Positions 36,483 through 41,037 of a DNA stretch of 64,000 nt are shown piece by piece. The DNA lies in assembly GCA_002698785.1 (NCBI GenBank), contig PAAG01000031.1, positions 62,001-126,000 of the forward strand, given 5' to 3'. The DNA is from Verrucomicrobiales bacterium. GTDB taxonomy: Bacteria > Verrucomicrobiota > Verrucomicrobiia > Verrucomicrobiales > DEV007. Each line of letters opens with the position of its first letter. Positions within the stretch are counted from its first letter, which is position 1. A program made the translations under genes and the position numbers. The notes beneath the pieces were generated by a model. The model saw only the letters and a list, made by a program, of their open reading frames with translations. It was not told where the DNA came from and searched no databases.

Positions 36483-37178
36483 TTACTCCGATCCGAGACT
36501 GTTTGCCTTTGATAGAACCTCGGATTTGCCTTCGGCGAGCATCTCGCCTTCTGCATTCACGAGGATGTAATGGGGCACGACATTCTTCACCTTGAACTCC
36601 ATCAAGTCGTCTGCGACCCGATCTCCTGGCAGAACAGTCAACCAAGGGAATTTCTCTTTCACTGCCCAGTCTTCCGCGCTGTCCTCGTCCGAATCGTGCG
36701 AAACGTGAATCAGAGCAACTTTTGGATTCTCAGCGATTTCCTTTGTATAGGACTCCACAAACTGTGGAGCCGAAGCCCTGCAGGGGCCTCACCACGACGC
36801 CGAGTAATATAGGATGTAGTATTCGGGCGACTTATCGAGTTCCGCTTTTTCAAACTTGTCTTCCTCGATCTTGTGGAGCTTGGCTCGCGAAATCAGCTTG
36901 CCGACCTTTGTGTCGGGATTGGGACCGGCAGCAGGCGAAGGAGCCGATGTGGTTTCTGCTGATTCTAAGAACTCGAGATCCTCTTTCGACAGGAGGTCCT
37001 GCTGAAATTCGATCGAGCGACCATTGCTCAACACAACTGTCACAAATCCGGTTTCGGGATTGTAGTTTCGAAGCTCACCATCGAAAGACTTCGATCCGTC
37101 CGCGCTTTTCCATGTCCGGGCAGAGCCGGAGGAGATCCCGATGGAAAGGATCGCCAGGGAGAGCAAGATAGCTTTCAT
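36483..37178 (-). CDS. Probable selenoprotein: secreted SHD1-thioredoxin with U-G-P-C active site
   Basis: 232 codons from ATG 37176-37178 to the stop at 36483-36485, with UGA at codon 130 (36789-36791). Signal peptide 1-20 (MKAILLSLAILSIGISSGSA), then an SHD1-like domain (RTWKSADGSKSFDGELRNYN to about 70), a Pro/Ala-rich linker, and a thioredoxin fold from about 95. The active site reads YYILYYSASW-UGA-GPC-RASAPQF, so UGA takes the place of the first Cys of the WCGPC motif (Sec130, Cys133). The downstream thioredoxin strands (VALIHVSHDSDE, KFPWLTVLPG, VVPHYILVNAEGEMLAEG) are intact. A hairpin 19 bases after UGA fits a bacterial SECIS. Role: extracytoplasmic thiol/disulfide or peroxide chemistry. 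Alternative: a Cys-to-stop mutation. Sec machinery cannot be checked here. Confidence 0.75.
36753..36769 (-). promoter_or_regulatory. Bacterial SECIS-like hairpin after the in-frame UGA
   Basis: On the minus strand CTCCACA, loop GTT, TGTGGAG: a perfect 7-bp stem that can extend by two pairs. It starts 19 bases after the UGA; the apical loop begins 27 bases after it and its first base is G. Bacterial SECIS elements need a small apical loop with G among its first two bases, 16-37 bases after UGA. The hairpin lies within the coding sequence, as expected. Confidence 0.65.
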
Positions 37179-37342
37179 ACTCACAGGTTACGGTAGGCCT
37201 GGGGAAAAGGTCAATGCAAACTCCCTACGGAATAAGGGAGCGTCGGGAAACTCTAATGATCACTTTAGTAAACGGTAGCCTTTTCGTAGACCGGATTGTG
37301 CGGCGACTGAACGAGCCAGACCAATCGATTTGATGATACCGA

Positions 37343-38812
37343 TTACTGCTTAATCTGACCGTCAGTCATAGAGCGTGAGGACAGGAGTCGTCGAGCTTCG
37401 GTTCTTTCCTCTGCACTCAATTTGCCATCTCCATCTGAATCCAGTTTCGCGATAGCTGCTTCGCGAAGTTCTCCAAAGCCACGGAGTTTGTCTTCGCCAA
37501 GGACGTGCTTGCCCGCCACCCACACGACGTGATCGCGATAGGCATTGCGTAGCGTTTTCATTTCACGACCGGGATTCTTTCCGGTGGGAACAACAAAGAG
37601 GTCGATGCTGCCCATCTCGTCAAAAGACTCGAATCCCCAGCGCACGCGCACGGGTGGGACGATGGGGTTGTCGGTCGACTCGGCGGAGTTGTCCCAGGCG
37701 ATCGTCGATGTCAGTTTTGTTCCGGCTGGTAGAATGACAGGGTTTTCAAAGCGATACTCCTCTTGCCAGTTCATGTCCCATTCGGGAATATTGAGCAGCA
37801 CTTGCTCTGTTCCGTCAGGGAGTGCGGCGGTCAGGTTGAGCGACTTGCCTCGATAGTGGGCGTGGGGCTGTAGACCGAACGCCTCGACTTCGACCGGGAT
37901 TTCAAAAGTGTCCACGATCGTGACGTCATCCGCTCCGGGTGCGAGGTCGATGCCGGAGAAGGCACCGAACACCGGAGGCACCTGGATCGAGGTGAAAGGT
38001 TTCTTCGGCGGGGTGTCGGTGAAATACAGCCCGACGGTCGATGCTTCTTTCTCTGGTTTTCCTGTCAGGTGAAAGTGCGTCTGGATCACGATGTCGCTAC
38101 CCGCGGGAACCTTGTGGGCGAGTCCTTCGGGAAGTGGTTTGGGCAGGGTTCCTGGCACCCAGCCGCTCACTTGTCTGCCCGTGCCTTCGCCCACCGGCAT
38201 TTCGGCAAAGCCCGGTTCGGGATCCTGTTTGTCGACCTCGCGAGAGCGACCGGAACTGTCGACATAGATCAGGGCATGGTGCACCACCTCGGGAGATGAG
38301 GCGCGAAACTCGACTGCTTTGAGGTATTTTTCTTCTTTTAATCCTGACGCGATCACAAAATTTCTGTAGATGTCCGGGCCGTCGGCGGGCAGTTCGTAGG
38401 CTTCGTCCATTGTCAGGACGAGGTCTGGTTCGCCGAGCAGCCAACCATCGGGAAATTCCAGAGGCTCCGGCATATCGGCGGGATCGCCTTCAGGGCGGCC
38501 GGCCGCGACCCAGTCCTGAATGAGTTGCTTTTCGTCTTCGGTCAGCCTTCTGTCACCTTCAATGGCGACGTCGCCTCCGATCGCATGCCACGGTGGCATG
38601 TAACCTCGATCAATGACCCTTTCGATGGTTTTTGCCCGGCGTCGCACGGAGTCGTAGTCGGTTAGTTGGAAAGGGGCCGATGCTCCAGGGCGGTGACAGG
38701 TCACGCACTTTTCATTCATCACCGGGGCGATGTCCTTTGTGTAGGTTGGGGCTCCTTGGAGCGGAATGGCCAATGGTGCGAGAGCGAAGGGTAGAAGAAA
38801 GATAGATCTCAT
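37343..38812 (-). CDS. Secreted cytochrome c / copper type II monooxygenase-like protein with EF-hand
   Basis: 489 residues. Signal peptide to about Gly20; c-type haem site CVTCH (Cys36, Cys39, His40) with MPPWH later as possible axial Met; then a Cu-dependent (ascorbate-type) monooxygenase-like region with His motifs EVVHHALIYVD, IQTHFHLTG and LQPHAHYRGKSL; finally an EF-hand-like DSDGDGKLSAEER at about 458-470. The fusion suggests an exported oxidase with its own electron carrier; the substrate is unknown. Its ATG overlaps the stop of the RND exporter gene upstream (ATGA at 38809-38812), so the two are translationally coupled. Family names are by motif only. Confidence 0.8.
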   Translation of the reverse strand: MRSIFLLPFALAPLAIPLQGAPTYTKDIAPVMNEKCVTCHRPGASAPFQLTDYDSVRRRAKTIERVIDRGYMPPWHAIGGDVAIEGDRRLTEDEKQLIQDWVAAGRPEGDPADMPEPLEFPDGWLLGEPDLVLTMDEAYELPADGPDIYRNFVIASGLKEEKYLKAVEFRASSPEVVHHALIYVDSSGRSREVDKQDPEPGFAEMPVGEGTGRQVSGWVPGTLPKPLPEGLAHKVPAGSDIVIQTHFHLTGKPEKEASTVGLYFTDTPPKKPFTSIQVPPVFGAFSGIDLAPGADDVTIVDTFEIPVEVEAFGLQPHAHYRGKSLNLTAALPDGTEQVLLNIPEWDMNWQEEYRFENPVILPAGTKLTSTIAWDNSAESTDNPIVPPVRVRWGFESFDEMGSIDLFVVPTGKNPGREMKTLRNAYRDHVVWVAGKHVLGEDKLRGFGELREAAIAKLDSDGDGKLSAEERTEARRLLSSRSMTDGQIKQ

Positions 38813-41037
38813 GACTGTGCTTTCTCAGGTTGGGGGGCCGGTTGGCGATGGAATTTCTCAACCAACCAGGGTAAAACGATCAGGTCGGCGAGCAGGGCGG
38901 ATATCGCAACGATCCCGAGTGTCACGCCGGTCCACTTCATTGTGGTAAAGTTAGATCCTATATAGCAAAGGGCTGCGACGAGCAGGACCAGCGATGTCAA
39001 CGTGATCGCGAAGCCACTCGATACGACCGCTTTGTCCATCAAATCCCGCAAGCTGCTCGTCGGGCTTTCGTTCTGCAATTGCTTGAAGCGCACCATCAGG
39101 TGGATGGTATCGTCCACGGCAAGTCCCAGTCCGATGGAAAAGACGATCAGGATTCCGAGGTGCAGCGACTCGCCCAGCCATCCACTGATGCCAGCGACGA
39201 CGAGAAGGGGAATCGCATTTGGCACAAGACAGAGCAGAGCCAGCCGGAAAGATCGGAGCACTGCGATGAGTATGATAGTGATCATTACCAGCGAGCAGAT
39301 CAGGCTGATCGCGAGAGTCTTTGAAATCAGCGTCGTGCTTTCGTAGAACATGGGCAGGTGCCCGTTCAGCTTCATGCTGGCTCCATCGGGAAGCTGATCA
39401 GCGTATTCCTTCACGCGATCTCGAAATGTCTCGTAGGCCTCGGTCCCGAAGTCGCCTGTTCGGTAGAAAACGATGCACGCTCGATCGAGGTCGCGATTCA
39501 ACAGGTTCAATGGCAGTCCATTTCCTGAGCCGAGGGCCTGTATGCCGAGTATGGGACCGTCTTCGGTTTCCAATACCTCCGGTGCCAGCGTCATGCGAAT
39601 CGCATCGACATAGGATCGCGATCCCGAAATGCCTGGAAAATCTCGCAGGTCCTCCTGCATCCTTTCTACAAGGGAGAAAACCTCGGGCTCTCGCAAATCG
39701 GCGTGAAGGTCGACCTCGATTCGATCAATGCCTCGGAAGTGCTCGGAGAACCAGTTGGTATCTTGGACGACTTTCAGGTCCTCTGGCAGCTCTCGCTCAA
39801 GAGAAGAATCCATCCGTGTCCTGACGACTCCTGCGGAAAGAAGCACTAACAGAACCGTCACAGGAGCAGCGAAGCGTCGCAGGTAGCGTGTGCCGGAAAA
39901 CGCCTGCGCCCGTGTTCTCTTTCCTTTTCCGGGGAAAAAGACGAGCGCCACTGGGACCAATAGCATGACCGTAAGGTAGGCGACTCCCACACCGATAGCG
40001 CACCATACTCCGAAGTCGTGGACTTCTTCGTGCCGAGCAATTGTCAGGCTCAGGAAACCGCAGGCCGTTGTCAGTGAGGTCAAAGCGCAGGCCCTCCCCA
40101 CTGTTGTAAACATGGAGAGGAGCGATTCTCGCACACCCAGGCCATCGGCCCGCGCATCGTCGAATTTCTGTTGTAGGTGGATCGCGTCTGCCAGACCAAT
40201 GATTAGGATCAATCCCGGTCCGGCGAGGTGCATGACGCCGAACTGCTTATCACACAAAATGAAGAGCGCGACGTAGGCGAGCTAGGCGGTAAAGGAACAG
40301 GCGAGTGGAAGATACGCACGCCGCAGTGATCGCATAAAGAACGGAATAATGATGATGAGTGCCAGCAACTGAATCCGGATCAGGGAGTGGAAATTCGACT
40401 TCAGCAATTGGCCCATTTTCCACAGGAGAAAACCGGGGCCGACCACGCGGACCTCGGCGCCATCCCATGGTTCTGCCAGGGAATCCACTACAGCTCGTTG
40501 GAGTTCTGATTGCCGCACTCCCTTTGCTTTAATCAGATAAACAGCGACCGATTTCAAATCGCGCGACACCAGTGTTCCCTTGAATGTCTCCATTCCTGCG
40601 CCGTCACCGAGGTCGATTGGTTCGGCACCGGTTCCACCGAGGCGAGCCCACTCGTCGAGGGTGAATCCGTCCATCTTCAGATCGAGCATCTGCTTCACCG
40701 AGATGACGCGCTGCACTTCGGGCAATTCTTCAATCGTTTTGGCCCATTGTGATGCCTGTCTCAATTGATCCACGGTCAGCGTGGTTGGCGAGGTAGCGGC
40801 AACAATCAGGTGGCCGTCAGAAGGGGGGAAGGTGCGGTAGAAGGTCTCGACTTCCTTGATCGTTTCGTCATCACCGCGTAGCATCTGTCCGAGGCTGAAT
40901 TTAAAGTCGAGTTTGGGGATCAGTGCAAGAGCACCCCACAGAAGTGCGATCCAGAGAATGGCGAACAACCAACGGCCACGCAACAGGACGGTGACCCACA
41001 GTTCTAGCGGAGACTGGCGACGGATAAACGGGAGCAT
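38809..41037 (-). pseudogene. MMPL/RND-type exporter interrupted by in-frame TAG
   Basis: One frame of 743 codons from ATG 41035-41037 to TGA 38809-38811, broken once by TAG at 40282-40284 (codon 252). Before it: an N-terminal membrane helix and a periplasmic domain of about 190 residues, ending in helix two (IRIQLLALIIIIPFFMRSLR). After it the membrane domain continues without loss (LAYVALFILCDKQFGV, IIGLADAIHLQQKF, RACALTSLTTACGFLSL), then the second half with IGLGLAVDDTIHLMVRF. RND/MMPL proteins export lipids, hopanoids or drugs using proton flow. Without suppression both fragments are probably non-functional. Coupled to the cytochrome gene by an ATGA overlap; the substrate is unknown. Confidence 0.8.

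Follow-up and report, generated by a model that had tools for sequence, protein, structure and literature searches.

Bacterial selenoproteins with a thioredoxin-like fold and selenocysteine (Sec) in a UxxC motif have been described before. They include a UxxC thioredoxin (PF00085) and the "thiol-disulfide isomerase-like" UxxC selenoproteins, for which the Sargasso Sea supplied the first prediction (PMC1088965, PMC9312934, PMC13188914). The isomerase-like family has been placed under Thioredoxin_8 (PMC9312934) and under cd02966 (PMC13188914). Selenoproteins of Planctomycetes are the subject of PMC4807772, which also mentions Verrucomicrobi.

The window analyzed here is a stretch of 64,000 nucleotides from a Verrucomicrobiales bacterium (contig PAAG01000031.1). 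It contains a gene that very probably encodes an exported selenoprotein, in which SelB-dependent reading of UGA as Sec, directed by a downstream hairpin, yields a product with an SHD1 domain and a tryparedoxin-like thioredoxin domain (Table 1).

The interrupted frame and its product

A preliminary description of this DNA had reported a frame of 232 codons broken by one UGA, at the first cysteine of a WCGPC motif. Both statements hold: the minus-strand frame 36483-37178 comprises 231 residues and a stop (TAA, 36483-36485), and its sole internal UGA, codon 130 at 36789-36791, lies in the context ASW-U-GPC. Reading with translation table 11 splits the gene into two open reading frames, 36789-37184 (131 aa) and 36483-36758 (91 aa), so that an ordinary gene caller would cut it in two.

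Table 1. Features of the probable selenoprotein gene and its product
Feature	Position	Strand	Remarks
Coding sequence	36483..37178	minus	231 residues plus stop if the UGA at codon 130 is Sec; supported by orthologues
UGA, probably read as selenocysteine	36789..36791	minus	Residue 130, first position of WUGPC
SECIS hairpin	36751..36771	minus	GUU loop on a 9-bp stem that includes one G-U pair; core conserved at 36753-36769
Likely signal peptide	37119..37178	minus	Residues 1-20 (MKAILLSLAILSIGISSGSA); judged by eye from sequence
SHD1 domain	36942..37124	minus	Residues 19-79; sub-cut-off Pfam score, PDB profile match, predicted fold
Tryparedoxin-like thioredoxin domain	36486..36911	minus	Residues 90-231; Pfam Thioredoxin_8 and fold matches
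Cys133, presumed resolving cysteine	36780..36782	minus	Second residue of the UxxC pair; invariant in 21 aligned rows

The gene looks stand-alone, since non-self, non-overlapping neighbor clusters were common to at most three of 29 loci (flanks of up to 1.5 kb, 12 largest clusters). The product of its upstream neighbor (37343-38812, minus) is 489 residues long and has a CxxCH motif; a cytochrome match was found for it only below cut-off.

In the predicted structure the extreme N terminus, residues 1-17, has pLDDT values below 50. The N-terminal part was also predicted and searched separately. An SHD1-like domain had been proposed at this position, and the proposal stands as regards fold but not as regards sequence score. 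The predicted domain superimposes on the solved SHD1 domain of Sla1 (2hbp) with Z 9.2 and rmsd 2.3 over 58 residues, the next best match having Z 5.6; Foldseek gives E 7e-4 and TM 0.78/0.72 for the same pair, and 2hbp is also the best PDB sequence match of the domain profile (E 0.0083). The Pfam SHD1 model (PF03983), with a curated cut-off of 23.7 bits, scores 15.9 on the whole protein and 19.5 on the domain alone. SHD1 is matched at E <=0.05 by 10 of 17 orthologue domains (best 6e-7), and the RimP SH3 family DUF150_C is also matched by 10 of 17 (best 4e-5).

The C-terminal domain scores above the Pfam cut-offs for Thioredoxin_8 (43.7 bits; cut-off 27) and Thioredoxin (42.1 bits; cut-off 23.5), and has profile matches to tryparedoxin/thioredoxin PDB entries at E 2e-17 and 6e-16. 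The predicted model has the thioredoxin fold, and its nearest solved folds are the nematode thioredoxin 4fyu and tryparedoxins. Sec130 would be the nucleophile, and Cys133 presumably resolves, as in established thioredoxin chemistry. Given this fold and the likely signal peptide, the most probable role of the product is that of a disulfide (or peroxide) reductase or isomerase working beyond the cytoplasm. The SHD1 domain, an SH3-like barrel, might serve as a tether or as a module for binding partners.

In two related loci (L022 and L024) a similar SHD1-like segment (ARTWKSADGSK) after a signal peptide precedes sequence that, by eye, is unlike thioredoxin; these bacteria may therefore reuse the SHD1-like segment as an N-terminal module. 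Such arrangements, together with the content of the piece encoded before the UGA (signal peptide, SHD1 and linker), lend some appeal to the idea that the gene has two outputs, the selenoprotein and, when selenium is low, a shorter but working exported SHD1 protein that results from stopping at the UGA. That piece, however, breaks off just past the strand of residues 120-126 in the predicted model, partway through the thioredoxin fold, and would thus carry an unfinished domain; no sign of regulated termination was seen in the sequences analyzed. A functional second product is unlikely.

The hairpin and the protein sequence it encodes

The preliminary description also noted a perfect 7-bp hairpin with loop GUU beginning 19 bases after the UGA. 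This core, CTCCACA-GTT-TGTGGAG, is found at 36753-36769 on the minus strand, 19 nt past the UGA. Folded alone, the segment 36751-36771 forms a 9-bp stem of -12.3 kcal/mol (z -5.0), and none of 200 shuffles was as stable. The fold of the 48 nt from the UGA onward has z -4.1; with 60 nt past the UGA the stretch stands out less (z -2.0, with 3 of 200 shuffles equally stable), though the six core pairs persist in the predicted fold. According to PMC13188914, bacterial SECIS elements have a stem of 4-16 bp, a loop of 3-9 nt whose first two positions include a G, 16-37 nt between UGA and loop, and a minimum free energy of at most -7.5 kcal/mol. The loop GUU, the 9-bp stem, the distance of 26 nt from UGA to loop and the energy given above all lie within these limits, as had been asserted of the hairpin from the outset.

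Comparison of relatives indicates that the stem is maintained where the UGA is present. The core pairing, counted from the UGA, joins positions 20-25 with 31-36. In the set from the host's taxonomic family, all six pairs form in 32 of 44 Sec rows and in none of the 24 Cys/Ser rows; under synonymous shuffling with pooled codon use, 0.5 full stems would be expected among the 44, and the maximum in 1000 runs was 3. The mean number of Watson-Crick pairs in these Sec rows is 5.55, versus 3.02 (sd 0.14) in the shuffles. A second set, drawn from the order outside the family and not used to define the stem, gives 5.25 pairs versus 2.90 (sd 0.12), with six pairs in 23 and five in 34 of its 59 Sec rows, where about 0.5 full stems are expected. 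In Cys/Ser rows the mean is slightly higher than in shuffles of those rows (2.17 versus 1.73 in the family, 2.57 versus 2.07 in the second set).

The loop and the fold follow the same division. A G occupies one of the first two loop positions in 103/103 Sec rows, versus 20/45 Cys/Ser rows. When the 57 nt past the codon are folded, four or more of the six pairs are predicted in 76/103 Sec rows (33/44 and 43/59) versus 3 of 45, and the core reaches -7.5 kcal/mol or lower in 68 of 103 (33/44 and 35/59) versus 4 of 45, so that this energy limit is not reached by every Sec relative. Two of the 21 Cys rows outside the family (L165 and L166), both from SelA-bearing genomes, keep a six-pair stem with loops that lack the G; these stems may be relics of a SECIS left by a recent change from Sec to Cys.

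Covariation within the family set points in the same direction, with measures of unequal strength. Both-side changes occur in five of six pairs and amount to 57 cells, versus 20.3 in column shuffles. The covariation score is 0.584, versus at most 0.28 when the partners are slid, and pairing falls from 94% to at most 54%. The count of pairs with double changes exceeds the shuffles only modestly (5 versus 4.0; 16 of 500 shuffles), and in the same test the count of pair types is not above column shuffles (7 versus 6.5). Recurrence of both the UGA column and the position of the hairpin in relatives argues for more than chance.

A hairpin within a coding sequence may also constrain the protein. Nine residues after Sec (+9), 101 of the 103 Sec rows have Gln and the other 2 have Glu, whereas a single one of the 45 Cys/Ser rows has Gln there; the codon at +9 (C-AG) spans the joint between stem and loop. 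At +8, Pro is present in 45/45 Cys/Ser rows. Among Sec rows, Lys at +8 goes with Ser at +12 (16/16) and Ala with Gln (2/2), as stem pairing demands, shared ancestry contributing to this coupling since the Lys/Ser rows come mostly from one subfamily. The case is weakened by rows with Pro at +8, which are not tightly coupled and allow Glu, Lys, Ala, Asp and Ser at +12. We lean slightly towards the view that exported SHD1-thioredoxin selenoproteins form a large family in Verrucomicrobiales, in some cases as multiple or tandem copies, and that the in-gene SECIS dictates part of the protein. If so, an RNA signal, rather than protein function, would have fixed part of the active-site helix.

In a covariance-model search of the genome, the gene and its paralogue were recovered at E <1e-8. 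Five further matches at E 0.5-9 (including L187) were considered as additional genes with the same SECIS and were taken as chance.

Selenocysteine machinery and the UGA column in relatives

The preliminary description proposed a search of the genome for selA, selB, selC and selD, and all four are found. SelA scores 402 bits and SelD, encoded next to it, 386 bits; SelB, on the same contig, scores 290 bits against a cut-off of 242. One Rfam match to tRNA-Sec was obtained (59 bits; cut-off 47), and ARAGORN also calls a tRNA-SeC with anticodon tca. The Rfam model alone is not specific, since its cut-off was also passed in 5 of 14 control genomes; SelA was found in 2 of the 14. Contamination of the host genome is estimated at about 5%, and the machinery contigs are assigned to it by binning alone. 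The host SelD (L018, G000:C53) has an in-frame TGA of its own, at SCAG-U-ASK. PMC13188914 lists UxxK as the Sec site of SelD, and the host SelD is likely a selenoprotein itself. The genome also encodes a paralogue that lacks SHD1 (L026, G000:C31:4696-5079, minus), with a WUGVC motif and a six-pair SECIS stem. Many family genomes hold a second, short group of rows (ASWUGxCK), which this paralogue resembles.

The UGA might instead be read by general suppression, or as Trp or Cys under an altered code. UGA readthrough does occur in other bacteria, and beyond this no specific point speaks for such a reading here. Against it stand the Sec machinery, the position of the UGA at a redox site beside a conserved hairpin, and at least two orthologues (L035 and L048) in which the frame appears to terminate at UGA. 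On these grounds a reassigned code was rejected, and we regard it as scarcely credible. Reading as Sec, for which the case is made from comparative sequence data, is very probable for codon 130.

Homologues were used to ask what occupies the position of 36789-36791, and the column holds UGA, Cys or, in four rows, Ser. Matches at E <=1e-10 occur in 52 of the 74 genomes of the host's family. TGA stands at the first motif position in 44/44 TGA rows examined there (45 listed), and 24 further rows have Cys (20) or Ser (4). Across the order, the profile has matches at E <=1e-12 in 277 of 386 genomes. From the matches listed, with preference for the better-scoring ones, 55 loci with TGA and 20 with no stop make up the order set. 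Among those matches TGA is at the motif in 54 of the 55 TGA loci examined outside the family (62 rows, 59 by script and 3 by eye), the exception being L157 (G210), with TGA away from the motif and Cys at it; Cys occupies the column in 21 rows. Rows with UGA at the motif column thus total 106 (44 + 59 + 3). In a draw of 387 genomes from the phylum, 32 match at E <=1e-30; every row with TGA belongs to the order, and in the 11 matching genomes from other orders and classes the frames contain no stop.

The family set leaves out five rows with the SHD1 part only (G056:C91, G002:C100, G065:C176, G049:C354 and G067:C277, the last of which lists one TGA), as well as L029 (SHD1 part only) and L056 (no thioredoxin motif). 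L021, L059 and L091 were dropped as repeats of other loci, and L027 and L028 are counted as Cys. In the order set, L142, L146 and L147 fall outside the motif used by the script and were read separately, and a further TUGPC copy in L124 is uncounted.

Several variants were seen among these rows. Thr replaces the Trp before Sec (TUGPC) in L146, L147 and one copy in L124, and Ser stands at the redox position (WSPNC, WSPSC) in L086, L088, L093 and L095. Two or three UGA copies lie close together in G015:C270, G282:C132, G249:C58, G317:C154 and G078:C1. One UGA form, L142 (G248), lacks the second Cys (WUPSA), and SelA was not found in its genome; some UGA copies, such as this one, may be decaying.

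A simpler account is that the UGA is a nonsense mutation or a sequencing error (TGC or TGT to TGA) in a Cys gene, leaving a pseudogene or a truncated protein. In a single genome such a change would be indistinguishable from a Sec codon. The earlier observation that the window has other in-frame stops is also accurate: an MMPL-family gene (38809-41037, minus) is broken by a single TAG at 40282-40284, both parts matching MMPL in one frame. UGA, however, recurs in the same column in the 106 rows, and the sequence after it is under purifying selection in the pairs tested: dN/dS is 0.05-0.16 in five of eight orthologue pairs, the three more distant pairs being saturated at synonymous sites. Decay elsewhere in homologues, which the preliminary description named as a warning sign, is not seen in these pairs, and the low ratios indicate that the gene family is not decaying. 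The covarying hairpin and the co-occurrence with SelA likewise speak against mutation or error, which was rejected on all these grounds and is very improbable. Selenoprotein status, first put forward as likely, is supported, since the machinery, the SECIS limits, the homologue column and purifying selection all point that way.

The tree was built from 131 columns and leaves many forks open. Within it the gene clusters with two Sec orthologues (SH-aLRT 99), and the Cys row L044 is sister to the Sec row L046 (SH-aLRT 100). The Sec/Cys label requires 8 changes on the tree versus 39 when shuffled, and starred branches force only three of these eight changes.

The UGA form and SelA tend to occur together, although relatedness among the genomes means that the P values overstate their independence. 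In the family, SelA exceeds its cut-off in 36 of 39 genomes with the UGA form versus 13 of 35 without (Fisher P 4e-7); at completeness of at least 90% the counts are 22/22 versus 5/21. The three UGA-form family genomes in which SelA was not found are 53-59% complete, and a UGA form at E <=1e-10 is missing from 13 SelA-positive family genomes. Outside the family, SelA occurs in 50 of the 54 genomes with TGA rows among the matches listed (G210 left out), versus 20 of 258 others (P 1e-36). It was not found in G248, G325, G354 and G380, of which G248 is 96% complete.

Direct support exists for the UGA, for the hairpin with its covariation, for the presence of the machinery, for conservation and, at the level of predicted models, for both folds. 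On the mechanism suggested by them, SelB would recognize the hairpin 18-38 nt downstream in the coding sequence and bring Sec-tRNA-Sec to the UGA at 36789-36791. The resulting protein would carry a signal peptide, the SHD1 barrel and the thioredoxin domain, and would probably be exported.

Relation to described selenoproteins and thioredoxins

No NCBIfam model (June 2026) exceeds its cut-off on the protein or on the scanned stretch of the paralogue. NF053656, a TUGYCR-motif thioredoxin-fold (seleno)protein, is a weak match at 15 bits (18.5 for the paralogue; cut-off 100). Words starting with Verrucomicrob or SHD1 are absent from the main text of the 2026 review of the prokaryotic selenoproteome (PMC13188914), and Verrucomicrob is unmentioned in five further papers on selenoproteins. 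The judgement of novelty also takes in PMC12013277, PMC1794560, PMC2398784 and PMC5330540. Within the literature searched, little selenoprotein work on this bacterial group came up, SECIS and Verrucomicrobi occurring together in three papers, PMC4807772 among them. The branch is absent from the catalogues searched and is regarded here as a new form within a known kind of selenoprotein, the UxxC thioredoxin-like proteins; some other publication or database may already record it.

The locus adds a well-documented selenoprotein family that has no NCBIfam model over cut-off and that a table-11 reading splits. Exchanges of Sec and Cys in close relatives, together with the coupling of hairpin and protein, make the cost of an in-gene SECIS measurable.

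The UxxC thioredoxin-like selenoproteins already described share with this protein a thioredoxin-like fold, Sec in the first position of UxxC and a bacterial SECIS right after the UGA. Thioredoxin_8, under which the thiol-disulfide isomerase-like family has been placed, is also the best-scoring Pfam family of the present protein. Judged by their descriptions, the published UxxC families, with which the present one may overlap in membership, would differ from it: here SHD1 stands ahead of the thioredoxin domain, and the UGA forms detected are from Verrucomicrobiales.

Among solved structures, the thioredoxin domain is nearest to the Wuchereria bancrofti thioredoxin 4fyu (Z 14.8 over 125 residues) and to tryparedoxins (PDB 1i5g, 1fg4, 3s9f and others; Z about 13-14 over about 130 residues). 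These are eukaryotic Cys proteins with about 21-29% identity to the domain, and their solved chains lack SHD1. The yeast Sla1 SHD1 domain, which binds NPFxD peptides, appears from the predicted model to have the same fold as the N-terminal domain, with 29% identity over the 58 residues superimposed. Unlike that of Sla1, the SHD1 domain described here sits in a probably exported bacterial redox protein.
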